Shown here piece by piece: positions 10,251 to 23,680 of a stretch of DNA of 64,000 nucleotides (positions within the stretch are counted from its first letter, which is position 1; every line of letters starts with the position of its first letter). Location of the stretch: contig JAOAPY010000008.1 in NCBI GenBank assembly GCA_025463135.1, forward strand, positions 124,001 through 188,000, given 5' to 3'. Source of the DNA: Acidobacteriota bacterium (GTDB taxonomy: Bacteria > Acidobacteriota > Blastocatellia > Pyrinomonadales > Pyrinomonadaceae). The notes under the pieces are model-generated. The model ran no database searches and was not told where the DNA came from. It saw nothing but the letters and a program-made list of their open reading frames with translations. Made by a program: the position numbers and the translations under genes.

Positions 10251-10343
10251 TGTCAGTACCACCTGCGTAAGCGGGTGGGTCAAGCCGATGGGCGACATTT
10301 CAGCGAGACAAGAACCCACCCGCTTACGCAGGTGGTACTGACA
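10251..10343. repeat. perfect 30-bp inverted repeat
   Basis: Arms 10251-10280 and 10314-10343 are exact reverse complements (TGTCAGTACCACCTGCGTAA and its continuation), separated by 33 bases. A solitary, slightly changed arm occurs at 29191-29215, so this is a dispersed element. It separates the kinase gene from the phosphatase gene and could also act as a transcript-end hairpin. Confidence 0.9.
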
Positions 10344-10369
10344 GATGATCTCGGCGAAATGCGCACGAA

Positions 10370-11236
10370 CTATACCGGCAGGCGCCCGAACTCCGCCAGT
10401 AGCGGCGCGAGGGCACTGATGACATGTGCGTGAGCCAGGCCATTGGTAGCAACCAGACCGTTGCGGTGCTGAACCTCCGCGGAGTTGTAAGTGATGCGGT
10501 TGCCAAACAGATCGCTGAAGGAGCCGCCGGCCTCGTTGAGAATTATCTGCGGCGCGCAAGTGTCCCACTGCTTGGTGCGCGGCGACAGATGTACATAAAG
10601 ATCACATTGCTGTTCGATAATCAGTCCGACTTTAATGCCAACCGAACCACGCTGAATTTCACCCTTGACGCCAAAAGCCTTCACCACGCGATCCATTCGC
10701 GGACTGCGATGTGAACGGCTCGCAGCCAGGCGCATCTGTGACAATTCGTCTTGCTCTGAAACGCGGGCTCGAGTGGCTGCGGCATTTGGTCGTTCAATCC
10801 ATGTGCCCTGATCGCGCACCGCTCGATATAACAAATCCGTCAAGGGTTGATACACGACTCCGAGCACGGCCACGCCATCTTCTGCGAGACCGATCTGCAC
10901 GGCAAAGTCACCGTTGCCATCGATAAAACCGTTGGTCCCGTCAAGCGGATCGATCATCCACACACGATGTTTGGCCAGACGGCGTTCCGTATCAATCGAT
11001 TCCTCCGCCAGAATGCCGTCGTCAGGAAAATGACGGTGGATACCCGTGACGATCAAATCGTTCGCCAGCCGATCGGCCAGGGTTACCGGTTCGCGATCAT
11101 CCAAATCGTACTTCTGCATCACCTCGATGGGCCGATCGTAGAGATCCAGAATTGCCGCGCCCGCCACCCGCGCCAGTTCCAGGGCCACGCGAAGTTCGTG
11201 ATCATATGATAGCGGTTGTGGCATTGGTAAAGGCAT
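10370..11236 (-). CDS. inositol monophosphatase-family phosphatase (CysQ-like)
   Basis: This 288-residue protein has the family's Mg2+ site: EE in GILAEESID, then WMIDPLDGTNGFI, and WDTCAPQIILNEAGG near the C-terminus. The CAPQIILNEAGG form is closer to 3'(2'),5'-bisphosphate nucleotidase (CysQ) than to inositol monophosphatase, so PAP hydrolysis in sulfate assimilation is likely but not certain. The length is typical. It lies 29 bases after the PLP decarboxylase on the same strand; that gap holds a 7-bp hairpin (GGAGTGC/GCACTCC). Confidence 0.85.
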   Translation of the reverse strand: MPLPMPQPLSYDHELRVALELARVAGAAILDLYDRPIEVMQKYDLDDREPVTLADRLANDLIVTGIHRHFPDDGILAEESIDTERRLAKHRVWMIDPLDGTNGFIDGNGDFAVQIGLAEDGVAVLGVVYQPLTDLLYRAVRDQGTWIERPNAAATRARVSEQDELSQMRLAASRSHRSPRMDRVVKAFGVKGEIQRGSVGIKVGLIIEQQCDLYVHLSPRTKQWDTCAPQIILNEAGGSFSDLFGNRITYNSAEVQHRNGLVATNGLAHAHVISALAPLLAEFGRLPV

Positions 11237-11265
11237 GTGGAGTGCTCACGTCGGCGCACTCCAAA

Positions 11266-12789
11266 TTATCTCTCTGCTGCCTCGCGCACGATGTCCAGCA
11301 GCGCGTCCAGGTCAGCGCGGGTGGTCCGGAAATTAGTGATGCACGCGCGCAGGGCGAACTTGCCGTTTACGGTGGCATTAGAAATATATGCTTCGCCGCC
11401 GCGCTGCACCGTATTCATTATGCGCGTGTTCAACTCGTCCAACTCGGAATTGATTTGCTCGAGTTCGCTTTCCGAAGCTGAATCTAATTTCGCACGCGCC
11501 GCCCGCGGCACATAACGAAAGCAACAGATGCTCAACTCGACCGGAGCCAGCAACTCAAAATCTTCGGCCGCGGAAATTTGTTGAGCCAGGTACTGGGCCA
11601 GCGCAAGGTCCTCGCTAATCGCTTCGCTGATTTTCCGAGAGCCGTAATAACGCAGCGTCATCCAAATCTTCAAAGCACGAAAACGGCGCGAGAGTTCAAT
11701 GCCGTGGTCCCAGAAGGCAAACGATTCCTCGGGCTCTTGCTCATGCACCTTGATATAGTCCGCTTCGTTTGCCGCAAATGCAGCTCGCGCGGTCGTCTCA
11801 TCTCGAAAGAGCAAGCAGCCGGCGTCAAGCGGCGTGTACAACCATTTATGACAGTCGAGCGAAATGGAATCAGCCAGCTCGATTCCCTTGAAGAGCGGCC
11901 GCTTGCCCTGGTCCATCGCTGCCAGCGCTCCATAGGCGCCATCGATGTGAAACCATAATCCAAACTCGCGGGCGACAGCCGCTACAGCATGTAGAGCGTC
12001 AACGGCGCCTGTGTTTACGGTACCGGCGCTGGCTACGACGCAAAATGGTTTGAGATTATTGCGGGCATCATGCTCGAGGCGCGCGCGCAGGTCTCTGATG
12101 TCAATTCGGAAACGATCGTCTGAGGCGATTATCCGCACCTGATTGCGGCCCAGTCCCAGCACATCAGCCGCTTTGGGTATCGACATGTGGATTTGATCCG
12201 AAGCATAGATCGTCATTGGCGTCTGGGAATTCCAAAGACCGGTGCGTGACGCGTCCGTATCCGACCTGGCGCGCTGGGCTATTAAGATCGCCGTCAGATT
12301 GGCCAGCGACCCGCCGCTGGTAAGCAGTCCCTGCGCTTTGTCGCTGAAGCCGGTCAACGATCCCAGCCAGCGCACCACCAGACGTTCCACCTCCGTCGCC
12401 GCCGGACCTGAGCGCCACGAGGTCACATTGGCGTTAAGCGCCGAACTGATGAGATCGGCAAAGGCCCCTGGCGCGTTAGCCGGCGAGGCCACATAACCGA
12501 AGAAGCGCGGATGCCCGTTGTGGCGGCTGGCGTCAAACATGGCGCGACAGTCGTTGAGGAGTTTTTCAATCGGCTCTCCTTCGACGGGAAGCTCGGCGCC
12601 AAGACGACGCAGGGTTGTGCCGGCCGATGTTTCGGGAAAAACCGGCAGCTGGGAAATGCGCGCAAAGTAATCCAGGACCAGTGCTGTAGTTTGCGTCGCC
12701 AGCTCTTGCATCGCCGCGGGCGAGAGATCGAGAGATGATGAACGAGTGTTCAGCGCAAGGTCTTCGCGTGGTTCGTCTGCCGCTTTCAT
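11266..12789 (-). CDS. PLP-dependent aromatic L-amino-acid decarboxylase-like enzyme
   Basis: This 507-residue group II decarboxylase has the substrate-entry segment FFGYVASPANAPGAFADLIS, the VTSWRSGPAATEVERLVVRW block, HIDGAYGALAAM with the PLP-contacting Asp, and the Schiff-base Lys in SLDCHKWLYTPLDAG (about residue 310). Family members decarboxylate tyrosine, tryptophan, DOPA or glutamate. The substrate cannot be settled from sequence. Its ATG overlaps the cupin stop by four bases (ATGA), so translation is coupled to the cupin gene. Confidence 0.88.
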   Translation of the reverse strand: MKAADEPREDLALNTRSSSLDLSPAAMQELATQTTALVLDYFARISQLPVFPETSAGTTLRRLGAELPVEGEPIEKLLNDCRAMFDASRHNGHPRFFGYVASPANAPGAFADLISSALNANVTSWRSGPAATEVERLVVRWLGSLTGFSDKAQGLLTSGGSLANLTAILIAQRARSDTDASRTGLWNSQTPMTIYASDQIHMSIPKAADVLGLGRNQVRIIASDDRFRIDIRDLRARLEHDARNNLKPFCVVASAGTVNTGAVDALHAVAAVAREFGLWFHIDGAYGALAAMDQGKRPLFKGIELADSISLDCHKWLYTPLDAGCLLFRDETTARAAFAANEADYIKVHEQEPEESFAFWDHGIELSRRFRALKIWMTLRYYGSRKISEAISEDLALAQYLAQQISAAEDFELLAPVELSICCFRYVPRAARAKLDSASESELEQINSELDELNTRIMNTVQRGGEAYISNATVNGKFALRACITNFRTTRADLDALLDIVREAAER

Positions 12790-14578: not shown

Positions 14579-14932
14579 ATGAGTGAACAACGTTTCAAAT
14601 CGTTTAAGGAATTTTGGCCGTACTATGTTACCGAGCACAGCAAGCCCGCGACGCGCGCATTACACGCAGTGGGAACCATTGGCGCGGTGGCCTGTCTCTT
14701 TGCCTGCCTCGCGACTCGCAATTGGATTTTGATCCCGCTTAGCGTCGTACCCGGTTACGGCGCGGCCTGGATTGCGCACTTCTTAATTGAAAAGAATAAG
14801 CCGGCGACTTTCAAGTATCCGCTCTGGTCGTTCATCGCCGATTACAAGATGGTCGCATTGATGATTGCCGGCAAGATGAATATGGAAGTTGATCGTGCTT
14901 TGAACGGCAAGGAGAGAGTAGCTGGTTCATAG
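14579..14932 (+). CDS. DUF962/Mpo1-like membrane protein
   Basis: This 117-residue protein opens with FKSFKEFWPYYVTEHSKPAT, the DUF962 signature, followed by two hydrophobic helices (GAVACLFACLA; ILIPLSVVPGYGAAWIAHFL) and FLIEKNKPATFKYPLWSFIA. The conserved His of EHS, LHAVG and IAHF are present. The family includes yeast Mpo1, an Fe-dependent dioxygenase of fatty-acid alpha-oxidation; that function is not shown for bacterial members. The length is normal. Confidence 0.85.
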   Translation: MSEQRFKSFKEFWPYYVTEHSKPATRALHAVGTIGAVACLFACLATRNWILIPLSVVPGYGAAWIAHFLIEKNKPATFKYPLWSFIADYKMVALMIAGKMNMEVDRALNGKERVAGS

Positions 14933-15170: not shown

Positions 15171-15235
15171 ACCAAAGACCAAAGACCAAAGACCAAAATC
15201 AACAACTAACTACTGACAACTGATCACCAACTACT
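15171..15235. repeat. ACCAAAG tandem repeat joined to an AACTGAC-type repeat
   Basis: Four near-exact 7-base units (ACCAAAG) occupy 15171-15197 and run into CTACTGACAACTGATCACCA, which resembles the 4331-4443 repeat. The last codons and stop of the MutH-family gene lie within it. Confidence 0.7.
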
Positions 15236-15918
15236 CTTGGCATCCACGCCAGCTTGTGCAGATTGAGAATATGCGCGACGAAAGTTGCCCGCGCATAAAA
15301 TGCCCGCGACGTGCTGCCGTGTCCGCGCCCTTTGGTGCGCGCCTGCACATACTTTCCCGTATCGCCGGTCAATGATTCAACTCCGCCGGCACGAATAACG
15401 CCGCGAATTGCTTCATAATCCTCTTCAACTTGTTTGTAGATGGCCGGGTTGTCGAGATCGAATTCCGCCGCTGAGTGCAGTATTGACGAAGTGTCGGCGA
15501 CGTTCTCGAAAATGCGCGCCACGACCACGACACTGCGGAGCTTGTCATAAAGGTGGCTGTCCTTGAATTTGTTACTCAGAACTTCGCCGGGTTCGATCAT
15601 CGTGATGGCCATGGACTCTTTCACTTTTACTGTGCCGTCAGCCGCGCGTCGCAACGGCACCACCTTTAATTCCCAGGTGCCGAAGTCAGGGGCTTGCAGT
15701 GAGTTTTGCGGCAAGCCAAGGTAATGCTCGATGACTTGCCCGGCCCAGCCTTTGTTCTTGCGATCATTTTTCCAGACCGTGATGCCGTAACTGTCGGCCA
15801 GCGGTCGCAGATCCTTTCCCGTAAGCAGCTTGATACGAGCCAAACCCTCGCGGCGTTCGAGTTTTTGCGTTTGAATGATGAGAGGCATGAATTGATCTTC
15901 GACGCCGAGCGTCGGCAT
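15199..15918 (-). CDS. MutH/Sau3AI-family DNA endonuclease
   Basis: This 239-residue protein aligns by eye with E. coli MutH along its length. NKGWAGQVIEHYLG matches the MutH DKGW block with its Glu (E64 here). APDFGTWELKVVPL gives D78, E83 and K85 of the DxnExK nuclease site, two residues tighter than MutH. SHLYDKLRSVVV, EEDYEAIRGVI and SRAFYARATFVAHIL also match. MutH nicks hemimethylated GATC in mismatch repair; Sau3AI relatives cut GATC. No methyltransferase lies nearby. The ATG at 15918 sits on the edge of a palindrome; the Met at 15888 fits the family's N-terminus equally well. The last residues (QLSVVSC) come from a repeat. Confidence 0.9.
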   Translation of the reverse strand: MPTLGVEDQFMPLIIQTQKLERREGLARIKLLTGKDLRPLADSYGITVWKNDRKNKGWAGQVIEHYLGLPQNSLQAPDFGTWELKVVPLRRAADGTVKVKESMAITMIEPGEVLSNKFKDSHLYDKLRSVVVVARIFENVADTSSILHSAAEFDLDNPAIYKQVEEDYEAIRGVIRAGGVESLTGDTGKYVQARTKGRGHGSTSRAFYARATFVAHILNLHKLAWMPRVVGDQLSVVSC

Positions 15919-16075
15919 GAGTTTAGCCCGGCGTTTCAACGCCGGGACGAAAGTAATGAGCTGTCCTCGTCGCGTTAGCGACGATTGAATAAAAGTATTT
16001 AAGTGTCAGTCGTCGCTACGCGACGAGAATACCTCGGTAACGTTTCCCGGCCTTGAAAGGCTGGGCTAAACTCAT
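15917..16075. repeat. large composite palindrome between divergent genes
   Basis: The outer arms (ATGAGTTTAGCCCGGCGTTT onward, and its partner ending GGGCTAAACTCAT) are imperfect reverse complements, and each arm carries its own hairpin (GGCGTTTCAACGCC; GGCCTTGAAAGGC). Inside lie CTCGTCGCGTTAGCGACGA and TCGTCGCTACGCGACGAG as a second inverted pair. It fills the space between the MutH-like and exonuclease genes. Confidence 0.85.
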
Positions 16076-16183
16076 ACCGACGCTACGCGTCGAAAGACGC
16101 GATCAGAGCGCCGTCTGTAATTTCCGCGGCGGCAGTATAGAATACCTCTCACCGAAAACGATCCGATTTTGAAAGGCCCCAGA

Positions 16184-17218
16184 ATGAAAGGCAACACTCC
16201 CATTTCCGAACTCACGTACGGCGAAGACGTTTGGCTGATCGTAGCCGTGACTTCTGTCCGTGAACGACGCACGCAGCAGGGCAAGCTATTCTGTGAAGCG
16301 CAGGCGCGCAACGCCAGCGGCTCGCTAACGTTGAAAATTTGGAGCGAGGCCCTGGAAACCTGGAAAGATCTAAAGCCGGGATTGTGGGGCATCACCGGGC
16401 GCCTGGAGGTTTATCAGGATCGCCCACAGTTTGTGCTCGCCGAATATCGGCCCATCACGCTGGAGCAGTATCGCGAGCATCAGGGCTCGGATCCGATCTT
16501 GCCGCGGGCCTACACCATGGATATTGAGACCCTCGCGTTGCCGGATTTTCGCGAACGGGTTGGGGCGCAACTTGAACGGACCATGCGGCTGGGCAACATG
16601 CGCCTCGAACAGCAGCAACGTTATCTGGAGGACATTGCCGCGGAAGAGGAGCGTTGTTATCAACTGGGCGCGCTGAGCGCCACCTCGGGCCGAGTGCTTT
16701 GCATCGCCGTGCATGTCGGTCCGATCCCCGGCCTTGAATTCGAGGGAGCGCAGTTGGGCGAAAGCGAGCACGTGTTCGGCATCGATCAGGAAGGAAACGA
16801 ACAGGATGAGAAACAGACGCTCACCGCCTTCCTGAACTTCATGAAAGGGTTCGATCCGGACGCCGACGAGATCGTCGGTCACAATCTGGTCGGGTTTGAT
16901 TTGCCTTTCATTTTTCAGCGCTGTCTGGTTCACTGCATTTCCGCGAAGCCGTTTGTCAATCTCGGTGAATACAATGTGCGCGGCGTGTTCGACACCATGC
17001 GCCAGTGGTGGTTGGGTGATAAAAGATCGCGTGTCAGTCTCGATGATATCGCCTGGGCCTTTGGCATTGAGTCCAGTAAGACCGCTGAGGTCGAAGGCAG
17101 CAAGGTGTTCGATCTTTACCAGGCGGGAAAACTTGCGGCAATCCGCGAATACAACCTCAACGACGTGCGGGTGACGCGCAAAGTTTACGAACGGATGGTG
17201 GGCTGCTTTGGAAGGTAA
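16184..17218 (+). CDS. PolB-like 3'-5' exonuclease with N-terminal OB-fold
   Basis: The 344-residue protein starts with about 95 residues of OB-fold type (ELTYGEDVWLIVAVTSVRER ... LWGITGRLEVY), as in nucleic-acid-binding domains. The rest is a DEDD exonuclease of the PolB-like group: YTMDIETLA, EIVGHNLVGFDLPFI and REYNLNDVRVT. It should degrade DNA from the 3' end with two metal ions. The ATG at 16184 has AAAGG eight bases upstream and is preferred to the TTG at 16169. It faces away from the MutH-like gene and precedes rmuC. Confidence 0.85.
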   Translation: MKGNTPISELTYGEDVWLIVAVTSVRERRTQQGKLFCEAQARNASGSLTLKIWSEALETWKDLKPGLWGITGRLEVYQDRPQFVLAEYRPITLEQYREHQGSDPILPRAYTMDIETLALPDFRERVGAQLERTMRLGNMRLEQQQRYLEDIAAEEERCYQLGALSATSGRVLCIAVHVGPIPGLEFEGAQLGESEHVFGIDQEGNEQDEKQTLTAFLNFMKGFDPDADEIVGHNLVGFDLPFIFQRCLVHCISAKPFVNLGEYNVRGVFDTMRQWWLGDKRSRVSLDDIAWAFGIESSKTAEVEGSKVFDLYQAGKLAAIREYNLNDVRVTRKVYERMVGCFGR

Positions 17219-17470: not shown

Positions 17471-18952
17471 ATGATTGAAAGTAACCTGATATCGATTCTA
17501 GTGCTGTTGATTGGCATTGCGGTGGGGGCCGTGTCTGTCTGGCTGGCGCTGCGGACGAAGGCCGATCAGATTTACAAAAGCGCGAAAGCCGAAGACGTGG
17601 CCCAGTTCGCTTCGTTACAGGAACGTCTCTCAGCCCGTGACCAGGAACTGCAAAAGCTGCAACAGATGTTTGATAAGGAAGTGCATGAGAGTGAAAGTCT
17701 CAGGGAGACGGGCTCGCTGCTAAAGGCCGAGCTGGTGGGCGAACGCCGCGCGGCTACCGAGCGCCGCGAATCTTTCAAGCAGGCCGCGGAAGAACTAACG
17801 GAAAAGTTCAAGGCGCTTTCGCGTGATGCCCTCAAGGACAACAACCAGTCGTTTCTCGAACTGGCTCGCTCGACGCTGGGCCAATTTCAGGAGACCGCTA
17901 AAGGCGATCTGGAACTGCGTACGCAGGCCATCGATCAGCTGGTCAAGCCCTTGAAAGAATCGCTCGAAAGGGTTGATGGCAAAATTGGCGAGATGGAAAG
18001 GGCGCGGGCCGGGGCCTACTCCGAATTGCGCGAACAAGTGAAGGCGCTGTCCTTCTCCCAGTCCCAGCTGCAGGCGGAAACGGGCAATCTGGTTAAGGCC
18101 TTGCGCGCGCCGCACGTGCGCGGGCGCTGGGGCGAGATTCAGTTGCGGCGCGTGGTTGAACTGGCGGGGATGCTTCAGTACTGCGACTTTGTAGAGCAGG
18201 AAACCGTCGCCACCGAAGACAGCCGCATCCGCCCGGATTTGATCGTGCGCTTGCCGGGAAATCGCACCATTGTTGTCGACGCCAAAGTTCCCTTCGAAGC
18301 TTTCTACGAATCAATCACGACTACCGATGAAGTGGTGCGAAGCGCGCGCTTGAAGGACCATGCGCGTCTGGTGCGCACGCATATCGGGGCCTTGAGCAAG
18401 AAATCCTATTGGGAAACTGTGCAACCTACTCCCGAGTTTGTTTTGCTGTTTTTGCCCGGCGAGAGCTTTTATAGCGCGGCCCTGGAAAACGATCCGAAGC
18501 TGATCGAAGACGGCGTAAACCAGAATGTGATCATCGCCACGCCGGCTACTTTGATTGCTTTACTCAAAGCTGTTTCCTACGGCTGGCGCCAGGAACAGAT
18601 GGCCTCCAACGCGCAGGAGGTCAGCAAGCTGGGCAAGGACCTTTACGATCGCCTGCGCACCTTCACGAATTATTTTGCAGACATCGGCCGGGGCTTGGAT
18701 CGCGCGCTCGAGTCTTATAACAAAGGCGTCGGGTCGCTGGAAGCGCGGGTGCTGGTCACGGCGCGAAAGTTCAAAGAGCGCGGGGCGATCGCGGGCGAAG
18801 AGATCGAACTGCTCGAACCGATTGATAAAGCAGCGCGACCCCTGAGTTTGGATGAAGGCGGTCTGTTTCCTGATCTGATGGCGGAAGCGGAAGAAGAAGA
18901 TGATTCGTTGCCGCTGCTGAGTTCGAAGAGCGCCCATGGCGGCGAGAAATAG
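17471..18952 (+). CDS. rmuC: DNA recombination protein RmuC
   Basis: The 493-residue protein has an N-terminal membrane helix (LISILVLLIGIAVGAVSVWL), a long coiled coil (~30-200) and the RmuC nuclease-like domain: APHVRGRWGEIQLRRVVELA, IVVDAKVPFEAFYESI, FVLLFLPGESFYSAALE, and IIATPATLIALLKAVSYGWR. RmuC limits inversions and rearrangements at short repeats, which suits this repeat-rich chromosome (inference). The length is typical. It follows the exonuclease on the same strand after two repeat elements. Confidence 0.95.
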   Translation: MIESNLISILVLLIGIAVGAVSVWLALRTKADQIYKSAKAEDVAQFASLQERLSARDQELQKLQQMFDKEVHESESLRETGSLLKAELVGERRAATERRESFKQAAEELTEKFKALSRDALKDNNQSFLELARSTLGQFQETAKGDLELRTQAIDQLVKPLKESLERVDGKIGEMERARAGAYSELREQVKALSFSQSQLQAETGNLVKALRAPHVRGRWGEIQLRRVVELAGMLQYCDFVEQETVATEDSRIRPDLIVRLPGNRTIVVDAKVPFEAFYESITTTDEVVRSARLKDHARLVRTHIGALSKKSYWETVQPTPEFVLLFLPGESFYSAALENDPKLIEDGVNQNVIIATPATLIALLKAVSYGWRQEQMASNAQEVSKLGKDLYDRLRTFTNYFADIGRGLDRALESYNKGVGSLEARVLVTARKFKERGAIAGEEIELLEPIDKAARPLSLDEGGLFPDLMAEAEEEDDSLPLLSSKSAHGGEK

Positions 18953-22000: not shown

Positions 22001-22845
22001 GCTTTTTTGAACAGTATCGAGGAGAGCGACTGGATCCAGCCCGGCGCGCCGAGCTGAGCAGCGAATTGTTGAAAATAGCTGATGACGTTTTCGATCTCCA
22101 TCAACAAGTGGTGCCGCCCCTCAATAAACAGGTATGGAAACTTGATCGCGAGATTCGCAAAATCATTCTCGAACAGGTGCTGCTTTATGAATTGGATCTT
22201 CAGGAGAAAACTGCCGGCGCCGCAGTCACGCCGGCGCGCTTCGAGCTCGCCTTTGGCGGCATGAAGTCGGCGGCAAGAGATCCGGCGTCGACTGAAGAGC
22301 CGCTCCGGCTGGTTCGCTCGACTTTTGTGGGCGAAGAAACGATGAAGATTAGCGGCCAGATAGATCGGGTGGATATAGCCGCGGATAAAACGCTGGTTGC
22401 TTACGACTACAAACTCTCAAAGGGAGCGCGCAAAGAAGACATCTACGAAGGACGTACCTTGCAAATTCCGATCTACCTGGAAGCCCTCGAGCAGCTTTTT
22501 TTCCCGGGTGATCCGATCGCGGGCGGTGGCTACTACACTTTGCGCGGCGGCTCCGAGCGCCGCAACACAGGCGTGTATCGCAAAGACTTCAATGATGACT
22601 ATCTTGCGCTGCAGGCAAAGAACTCGATTTTCTCTGAATACGAGTGGCAACAGTTTCGCGCCGCAGTGACGGCGCGGATTTGGGAATTTCTTGATCGCAT
22701 GCGCAACGGACGGTTCACCGTGGAACCCTCGGAAGGCTATAAGACCTGTAAGTTTTGCGACTACGCGGCGGTCTGCCGTTATGAGAAGTATCGCATCGAT
22801 CGAAAGAAGCGAAGCGAACGAAAGGACACAACCAAAGATGAGTAA
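19063..22845 (+). CDS. AddB-like PD-(D/E)XK exonuclease with Fe-S cluster
   Basis: This ~1260-residue protein has an inactive-helicase-like N-terminal half (WLGPLLGNNRARLIERCAEL; VLRVRGLRF-like core ATDVRGLRFRAVFIAGLIEG) and a C-terminal RecB-type nuclease: GQIDRVDIAADKTLVAYDYK with the D..D.K site. Four cysteines for a 4Fe-4S cluster are visible, one in FGNCAYRFF and three in YKTCKFCDYAAVCRYE. It would act with the AddA-like protein in double-strand end resection. An open TTG frame starts at 19012 inside a repeat; GTG 19063, just before SKEIWLGP, is preferred but not proven. Its stop overlaps the TIR gene. Confidence 0.85.
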   Translation: MSKEIWLGPLLGNNRARLIERCAELVSQNKASSFLYLAASHPLLEIVTQGILDGDRNRGVWGELPVYLFRGFVRHLISTAVDEAGNGMTARMPIDHEELPLKRSLISQLLLRLKGQGKLTAIAPLAHRDGCVNTIAGLIGEIQRAGKTPEEFAQVVANRVRDFYEGTAGAQHKPRPSQSPLANGEHSRMLPAQIDFDQDLALIYATYFNLLEQNHLSEDDADGLRALQILRDTVVGKVILPRLENVQLLVLDGFFDFTPAQGEMLKLLIPQIPQVVVNLNKDDRNPEIFAPFNSTIDQLSSAADFDIKHSPVNLTTQGALSVLRENLFNPALAKLELSHDSESEDARHGQSEIRYFDCTDRETELRVIAKEIKRLVLLEDYHLSDIALVVRERTSYAETITRVMREEGLPCSLDRRITVDEIPATRAALKLLGVLNDLALDEASVLKMPQLADQIKSGYFRLTQEALDALAAEFEEKFSDLLREGELDGVDRNVERAERRRRGFGIGRWDADTLENVIAYVGADLRLADWLDRCRKLIDQLPSAEATKELLNIDAAEPGGDDDEAQMEDAETVQPEDKHVEKKRRPQRDIHPAVIAWSTLVIKRFAAQLQAVPRQGAPVELRAAIMKLLDQFQFRREVTSVSLTEDKELPRAVLDLHALEGLRRAFLTAIKSLHLTQPAATAEPRLASLTSVIEEVRRCLSSQTVIVGSAERGGLRVLEATDVRGLRFRAVFIAGLIEGGFPLSASRDWIYPHEERERLKHYGLTLEDISPNSLLKEEHYFYQTACRALERLYLTRPLMLEGDAETVASYYIDEVRRAIAPAKLVKEDVVRPDYDGVKLRQASSANEAAISLVRQEQHHLNKVEREGLLPHPQVSALLSLARNDRLLSESALVRIGIERERSGQNFGPYDGQITDPDLLTLIRKRFGPDFVHSASGLGAFGNCAYRFFAQRVLKLEPRGEAALDLQALDAGKLLHDILRRFFEQYRGERLDPARRAELSSELLKIADDVFDLHQQVVPPLNKQVWKLDREIRKIILEQVLLYELDLQEKTAGAAVTPARFELAFGGMKSAARDPASTEEPLRLVRSTFVGEETMKISGQIDRVDIAADKTLVAYDYKLSKGARKEDIYEGRTLQIPIYLEALEQLFFPGDPIAGGGYYTLRGGSERRNTGVYRKDFNDDYLALQAKNSIFSEYEWQQFRAAVTARIWEFLDRMRNGRFTVEPSEGYKTCKFCDYAAVCRYEKYRIDRKKRSERKDTTKDE

Positions 22846-23680
22846 TCAGGAAATAACGAAGCCCGAGTTATTCATCAGTCACGCAACCACGGATGGAGAG
22901 TTTGCCAACGCCGTGAAGCAAGAGATTGAGAAGGTATTCGCCAACGGGGTGGACGTGTTTTGCACAAGCTCGCCAGGCACAATTCAGGTTGGTGCAGATT
23001 GGTTACAGGAACTTGAGACCAAATTGGCAGCCGCACAAGCCATAATTGTGATTGTCACTCCAGTTTCGATTGAAAAATCTTGGTTATGGTTTGAACTGGG
23101 AGCCACTTGGTCGAAAGCCCGGGCTGGAACTTGCAAAATTTATCCCTTGTGTGCTCCTGAGGTTGAGATGGGCGCACTGCCATCGCCTTTAGATAGACTT
23201 CAGGCTCTGTCAATGGGGGAAACGGCTAACCTAAGACTGCTCTTTAAAGCACTGATTACTCTGTTTGGTTTTGGCAAAATATCGTCATTCAAGGCTACCA
23301 ACATTACCAAGCGAATTCCCAAGTACAAGAACGTAAAGATCAAAGACGTCGATCTAAATGACAAACGGCTCTACTCCGGGCGATATTCCAGTTATAGCGA
23401 TGAAGAGCTGAAGGAGCTAATCGATACGGCATTCCTGTTTCCAGACAATCAGAGCTACAAGAAGTATGGTGAAAGGCTTCTTCAAGGGCGAGAGGATCTA
23501 ATTCGCAATGGCAAGCTTCTTCACTTTAAAAAGATCGATGGCGATTTGGATTTACCGCCGGGTACCGCTAAACGACTACTAACCACCGTCGCGCAACGTT
23601 ATAACTTAGTGCCTCAGTATCAGGAGGAAAATGTCATAAGATTCACGACCAAGAACAGCGTTCAGAATTTCGATCATTGA
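22838..23680 (+). CDS. TIR-domain protein, putative NAD-consuming defence effector
   Basis: In this 280-residue protein residues 9-~130 form a TIR domain: PELFISHATTDGEFANAVKQ, VFCTSSPGTIQVGADWLQEL, AIIVIVTPVSIEKSWLWFEL. The spacing W82-xxx-E86 matches the catalytic Trp/Glu arrangement of NAD-cleaving TIRs, so E86 is the likely catalytic residue. The C-terminal ~150 residues (SYSDEELKELIDTAFLFPDN and on) are unrecognised and may sense or regulate. The ATG lies 8 bases before the end of the AddB-like frame. The gene is visibly more A/T-rich than its neighbours, suggesting transfer. NADase activity is inferred only. Confidence 0.85.
   Translation: MSNQEITKPELFISHATTDGEFANAVKQEIEKVFANGVDVFCTSSPGTIQVGADWLQELETKLAAAQAIIVIVTPVSIEKSWLWFELGATWSKARAGTCKIYPLCAPEVEMGALPSPLDRLQALSMGETANLRLLFKALITLFGFGKISSFKATNITKRIPKYKNVKIKDVDLNDKRLYSGRYSSYSDEELKELIDTAFLFPDNQSYKKYGERLLQGREDLIRNGKLLHFKKIDGDLDLPPGTAKRLLTTVAQRYNLVPQYQEENVIRFTTKNSVQNFDH

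Follow-up and report, generated by a model that had tools for sequence, protein, structure and literature searches.

The window, the whole stretch of 64,000 nucleotides analysed here, comes from a soil acidobacterium (Pyrinomonadaceae, Acidobacteriota; genome of 6.48 Mb in 56 contigs, with one MutH-family match) and encodes a single-domain endonuclease of MutH/Sau3AI fold with intact catalytic residues, no linked methyltransferase (MTase) and a place in the tree that derives it from MTase-linked restriction enzymes. The gene is under purifying selection in a genome that also encodes an orphan Dam-type MTase and a MutL with its endonuclease motifs intact. We give an even chance to the explanation that the nuclease has left a GATC restriction-modification system and is now a kept chromosomal gene, one half of a split system for restriction of incoming DNA in which Dam provides protection in trans. 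The fold and the broad family are already known; as far as the literature searched shows, what is new is the solitary Dam-associated acidobacterial clade, of which our searches found no description, its descent from the linked family and a catalytic Asn/Asp contrast between the two forms.

The gene occupies an intact ORF of 239 aa on the minus strand (15199-15918), or of 229 aa if translation begins at Met11 (15199-15888). Because the close relatives in the family alignment all begin at or near Met11, and because the first ten codons fall within an arm of an inverted repeat, the true start is probably Met11 (window position 15888). The repeat is imperfect (50 nt, 88%; 15898-15947 and 16045-16094) and adjoins the 5' end of the ORF, reaching into it. 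The features of the locus are as follows.

15199..15888, minus strand: endonuclease gene of the MutH/Sau3AI family at its probable true length (229 aa), counted from Met11 of the longest ATG ORF (15199-15918)
15889..15918, minus strand: ten extra upstream codons, probably untranslated (starts of relatives; within an arm of the inverted repeat)
15727..15729, minus strand: codon of catalytic Glu64, aligned with the MutH and Sau3AI Glu and present in all readable rows
15685..15687, minus strand: codon of catalytic Asp78, from the alignment; Asn in 65 of 68 readable MTase-linked relatives
15664..15672, minus strand: codons of Glu83-x-Lys85, from the alignment with MutH
14579..14932, plus strand: Mpo1-like (DUF962) gene, one flank of the site that is syntenic in genera g1 and g10
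16184..17218, plus strand: gene with OB-fold and PolB-type 3'-5' exonuclease, the other flank of the syntenic site
17471..18952, plus strand: RmuC-type gene (named from sequence reading) after the exonuclease gene, context only

The original prediction had recognized MutH-family blocks in this protein, and profile and structure comparisons bear it out. The Pfam MutH model (PF02976) matched at 44.2 bits against a cut-off of 23, and the only significant PDB sequence matches were E. coli MutH (1.7e-9), H. influenzae MutH and Sau3AI. An AlphaFold model (mean pLDDT 75, pTM 0.73) gave Z 15.2 over 203 residues against E. coli MutH (2azo_B), Z 13.9 against the N-terminal and about 11 against the C-terminal domain of Sau3AI, and only about 6 against BcnI/MvaI, the next-nearest fold. 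Scores fell below the equivalog cut-offs of both NCBIfam MutH models (70.7 bits versus 243; 55.4 versus 229.9) and of NCBIfam Sau3AI (NF040973; 69.1 versus 300), and the MvaI/BcnI model (PF15515) matched at 30.5 bits (cut-off 25) over residues 49-90 only. The protein has one domain and lacks the Sau3AI layout of two tandem MutH-like domains.

The Glu, Asp, Glu-x-Lys active site was likewise read correctly, as E64, D78, E83 and K85 align with the MutH catalytic residues, and the predicted C-terminal RAFY (R205-A-F-Y) is invariant in the close family. Alignment also confirmed that the Asp-to-Glu spacing is two residues shorter (D-x4-E-x-K versus D-x6-E-x-K in E. coli MutH and Sau3AI), but this spacing is common to the whole MTase-linked family and not peculiar to the window gene. 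Our scan pattern for relatives required the x4 spacing, so that its constancy across the family is partly ascertained; the pattern let through either D or N at the Asp78 position, and the Asn/Asp contrast was therefore not forced by the scan.

The scan covered one genome per species in 84,980 species and returned at least 196 relatives, of which the best 80 were fetched. These best 80 span many phyla, the closest being MAGs labelled Blastocatellia and Pyrinomonadaceae (Acidobacteriota). An adenine MTase gene stands beside or close to the nuclease gene in 69 of the 80 loci, nearly always upstream, and is mostly of the DpnA-like N6/N4 type and otherwise of the Dam-like D12 type; the 11 MTase-free loci comprise eight of Pyrinomonadaceae type and three from Verrucomicrobia. 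The second MTase of LlaDCHI, a DpnII-related system on pSRQ700 with GATC specificity (PMC4190342), shares about 56% identity with the DpnA-like MTase. In the tree, the window protein and nine solitary Pyrinomonadaceae proteins (10 species) form one clade with support 100/100, which lies within a 98/96 clade that also holds MTase-linked enzymes from G006, Ca. Contendobacter and Ardenticatenales; a 96/92 branch separates the window's family from MutH and Sau3AI. The phylogeny of MutH versus Sau3AI, which had been proposed as a check, thus places the window protein in neither; no grouping with gammaproteobacterial MutH was found in the tree, the protein being nested in the MTase-linked restriction family, and the suggestion of a solitary nicking or restriction enzyme was right as one option. 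Since the solitary clade nests among MTase-linked enzymes, the solitary form is a descendant of an MTase-linked restriction enzyme. Position 78 is Asp in 13 of 13 solitary sequences, against Asn in most readable linked ones, and because the solitary clade sits within Asn-bearing enzymes, the simplest history would place an Asn-to-Asp change on the stem of the solitary Pyrinomonadaceae clade.

Several observations concern the linked family itself. Among loci L163-L242, the MTase-linked enzymes with Asn at the canonical PD-(D/E)XK aspartate carry it in PNFGSWELK, and at least two such genomes strongly avoid GATC. In Cyanobacteria (L173-L174, L176, L181-L188, L190, L193, L196, L198) a MutH-like nuclease gene directly follows a DpnA-like MTase gene, which is at odds with the statement that MutH is confined to gammaproteobacteria (PMC4390886) and is possibly relevant to HIP1 (GCGATCGC). 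A search of a plasmid collection gave only a distant MutH/Sau3AI relative, and 'MutH/Sau3AI family endonuclease' is already in use as a name on a plasmid record.

No MTase gene was found among the genes neighbouring the window nuclease or the other solitary Pyrinomonadaceae nucleases. Two D12-class adenine MTases are, however, encoded elsewhere in the genome, on other contigs. The better one (contig C42, 268 aa; DpnM 110 bits, E. coli Dam 85 bits) retains the EcoDam motifs KWAGGK, NGLCRFN, GEFNVPFG and DPPY, from which GATC specificity is predicted only. The notion of an organism without Dam was rejected with this homologue, found where the original prediction had advised looking for dam; its description of an enzyme without a methyltransferase partner stands for the adjoining genes but not for the genome, and the enzyme is partnerless only locally because a Dam-type MTase is encoded on another contig. 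A restriction partner beside Dam was also rejected as a candidate: the next gene on C42 encodes an amidohydrolase, and among the other Dam orthologues whose flanks were read, none had a recognizable restriction enzyme nearby, so that these also look orphan. The second, divergent D12 MTase gene (L038:9419-10360) overlaps a 448-aa gene (10321-11667) without a Pfam match, and the cluster around it may be a defence island.

Across 60 genomes of the family, a Dam orthologue was present in 7 of the 9 that carry the solitary gene and in 5 of the 51 that lack it (Fisher p 6e-5). A phylogenetically controlled co-occurrence test had only two independent pairs and no power, and the association reflects the history of a single clade and does not count as independent evidence. 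In G033, which has an intact MutH-like gene, neither a Dam orthologue nor a DpnA-like MTase was detectable at 97% completeness. An unlinked DpnA-like MTase occurs in two of the three Verrucomicrobia genomes with the solitary form, a similar arrangement in another phylum.

Site avoidance, expected as support for GATC restriction-modification, was not seen in the window's own genome, where the observed/expected ratio (O/E) of GATC under a second-order Markov model was 0.99 (462 kb); it was 0.83-1.03 in the other solitary genomes. By contrast, in two linked Pyrinomonadaceae the ratio fell to 0.03 (G005, Dam-like linked) and 0.21 (G006, DpnA-like linked). Family members with neither gene had a median of 0.60 over a wide range, which implies that GATC avoidance is common for other reasons and that a low ratio by itself says little. 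The idea that solitary genomes avoid GATC was rejected, the site being if anything commoner there (median 0.96 versus 0.60 with neither gene, p 0.067). Among the fetched loci, GATC was lower in linked than in solitary ones (median 0.74 versus 0.93, p 0.004, uncorrected for relatedness). GATC was also almost absent in two genomes of the family, G007 (L269; 0 against 46 expected) and G045 (L296; 9 against 61), in both of which a MutH-like gene was undetected and other GATC systems probably act. At L034:7733-10538 and L035:8775-11400, two other Pyrinomonadaceae encode full-length Sau3AI-like enzymes with a cytosine MTase-like gene alongside, and GATC is over-represented in both (O/E 1.14 and 1.20).

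Genera g1 and g10 share the site of the MutH-like gene, between the Mpo1-like and PolB-type exonuclease genes; the gene is cleanly absent from this site in G047 and G054 (both g10), and the RmuC-type gene adjoins the exonuclease gene also in genomes without a MutH-like gene there. In genus g3 the gene lies at another site, where a subtilase-type protease gene comes closely after it, either overlapping it or separated from it by at most about 90 nt. These g3 subtilase (S8) genes (L026:10339-11718, L028:4074-5435 and orthologues in L027, L029 and L167) encode CxxC motifs near the N-terminus. The MutL tree groups g1, g3 and g10 (98/96), and the distribution of the solitary gene is consistent with one gain and two losses. 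Four close pairs gave dN/dS of 0.05-0.08 by YN00, dS being saturated in most pairs. The copy in G052 is frameshifted or split; the other solitary copies keep all catalytic residues, except that a few have a conservative change from E to D at position 83. Elsewhere in the window (22691-23680), a protein that is TIR-like by eye (FISHATTDGEFA...) is encoded between AddB-like and AddA-like genes.

The mismatch-repair genes mutS and mutL, for which a search had likewise been proposed, are both present. MutS is complete, and the 669-aa MutL contains DQHVAHERVLFD, ACHAAI and CPHGRP; its retained DQHVAHE, ACHAAI and CPHGRP correspond to an endonuclease motif of the D(Q/M)HA(X)2E(X)4E type, from which it departs by two conservative substitutions that are usual for the family. 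These motifs occur in 30 of 30 Pyrinomonadaceae MutL genes read, with or without a MutH-like gene, the middle motif being unrecognized in one, and an altered MutL in species with the MutH-like gene was thereby rejected. In MutH-using species MutL is without the endonuclease motif (PMC8744996), and a MutL of that kind was not found here. Because MutL keeps this motif, MutH is not needed here for nicking in repair, though it may have a supporting role; with scores far below the equivalog cut-offs as well, the name 'MutH' in the mismatch-repair sense is doubtful, and the strand-choice role first suggested for the protein is weakened.

The reading as one half of a split restriction system is supported by the fold and active site, the nesting in the tree, the MTase linkage, the LlaDCHI-like MTase, the near-absence of GATC in two linked Pyrinomonadaceae, the orphan Dam, the endonuclease motifs of MutL and the low dN/dS. 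We infer that the protein, a small PD-(D/E)XK endonuclease, goes back to a nuclease that belonged to a GATC-specific type II restriction-modification system in which the adenine MTase gene preceded the nuclease gene, that an ancestor of the Pyrinomonadaceae subclade lost the linked MTase and exchanged the active-site Asn for Asp, and that vertical inheritance under purifying selection followed. The enzyme would recognize GATC via the MutH-type fold and hydrolyse DNA in a metal-dependent manner with E64, D78, E83 and K85, cleaving or nicking GATC that lacks adenine methylation and being blocked by that methylation. Host sites would be protected in trans by the orphan Dam-type MTase, making foreign unmethylated DNA the presumed target and the enzyme something other than a mismatch-repair nickase. 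Against this reading, the solitary genomes do not avoid GATC (O/E 0.83-1.03), although many linked loci do not either, and avoidance is unnecessary in a fully methylated genome. An unregulated restriction enzyme would be lethal in G033, which is without a detectable methylase, and restriction genes are not usually passed on vertically and stably at one fixed site, as this gene is in g1 and g10.

These same points suit a nuclease that does the work of E. coli MutH: MutS/MutL would recruit it to nick the unmethylated strand of hemimethylated GATC, the new strand being singled out for mismatch repair by a mark that the orphan Dam provides. Methyl-directed repair would then have a second origin, outside gammaproteobacteria. 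We regard this reading as a minority possibility with a real chance of being right, and it stays in play mainly because the gene is inherited vertically, because GATC is not avoided and because of G033, where an intact gene in the absence of a detectable Dam is easier to explain as a latent enzyme that MutL activates than as a freely acting restriction enzyme. The MutH fold, purifying selection, the Dam orthologue in 7 of 9 genomes versus 5 of 51 and the N-to-D change at the origin of the solitary clade also agree with it. It is opposed by the endonuclease motifs in MutL of every readable genome with the gene, unlike MutH-bearing species (PMC8744996), by the position outside the MutH clade, by the gene's absence from the close Dam-bearing relatives G047 and G054, and by a Dam association that comes down to two independent pairs. 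That Acidobacteriota domesticated a GATC restriction nuclease, regained its catalytic Asp and use it with Dam to nick hemimethylated GATC while MutL retains an endonuclease of its own, two strand-choice mechanisms then existing side by side, is unlikely. On balance, restriction in trans seems somewhat likelier than methyl-directed repair, both roles being predicted.

A solitary GATC nuclease with another task and an unrelated Dam, be it a regulated recombination or replication nickase, an unrecognized defence module or a methylation-dependent enzyme, strikes us as improbable. Dam is not strictly coupled to the gene, being absent in G033 and alone in five genomes, and the subtilase-type gene that closely follows in g3 means that the partner may differ between lineages; yet adenine MTases go together with the wider family, and a cutter of methylated GATC would destroy its Dam-bearing host. 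The frameshifted or split copy in G052 and the clean absences in G047 and G054 might suggest that the gene is what is left of a restriction system, decaying and no longer functional, which the low dN/dS and the otherwise intact catalytic residues render very improbable.

Compared with known systems, the window protein resembles MutH of E. coli and H. influenzae (NF003458, TIGR02248, PF02976) in its fold, its Glu-Asp-Glu-x-Lys residues and its single domain of about 230 aa, and MutH systems share with it the lack of an adjacent MTase and a Dam elsewhere in the genome. It differs in having 21-24% identity, the D-x4-E-x-K in place of the D-x6-E-x-K spacing, a different clade and a host MutL with its own endonuclease motifs. 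A common view holds that E. coli MutH and Dam go back to a restriction system, the steps being lost. Sau3AI (NF040973), whose family is tied to GATC, is similar in the fold of its N-terminal domain and its catalytic residues but has two domains rather than one (about 475-500 versus 239 aa), a longer Asp-Glu spacing and, unlike the window gene, a linked 5mC MTase. MvaI/BcnI (PF15515) share the D-x4-E-x-K spacing, but the match covers just 42 residues, the structural match is far weaker and these enzymes have different target sequences.

The direct relatives are instead the MTase-linked MutH-like enzymes (among them those of G005, G006, Microcoleus and Poribacteria), which have the same motif spacing and a conserved H-G-S-T-S-R-A-F-Y segment, those of G005 and G006 being 57-62% identical to the window protein; an adenine MTase gene stands next to theirs, and most of them carry Asn at the Asp78 position, whereas the window clade is unlinked and carries Asp. 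The closest relatives thus belong to a large MTase-linked restriction family of many phyla and not to gammaproteobacterial MutH, and a 'MutH' annotation outside gammaproteobacteria should not be taken as methyl-directed mismatch repair. Pyrinomonadaceae hold two states, linked pairs with GATC almost removed and an unlinked nuclease plus orphan Dam with GATC kept, and because both occur in one family, the change of architecture and the Asn-to-Asp change are testable in close relatives.
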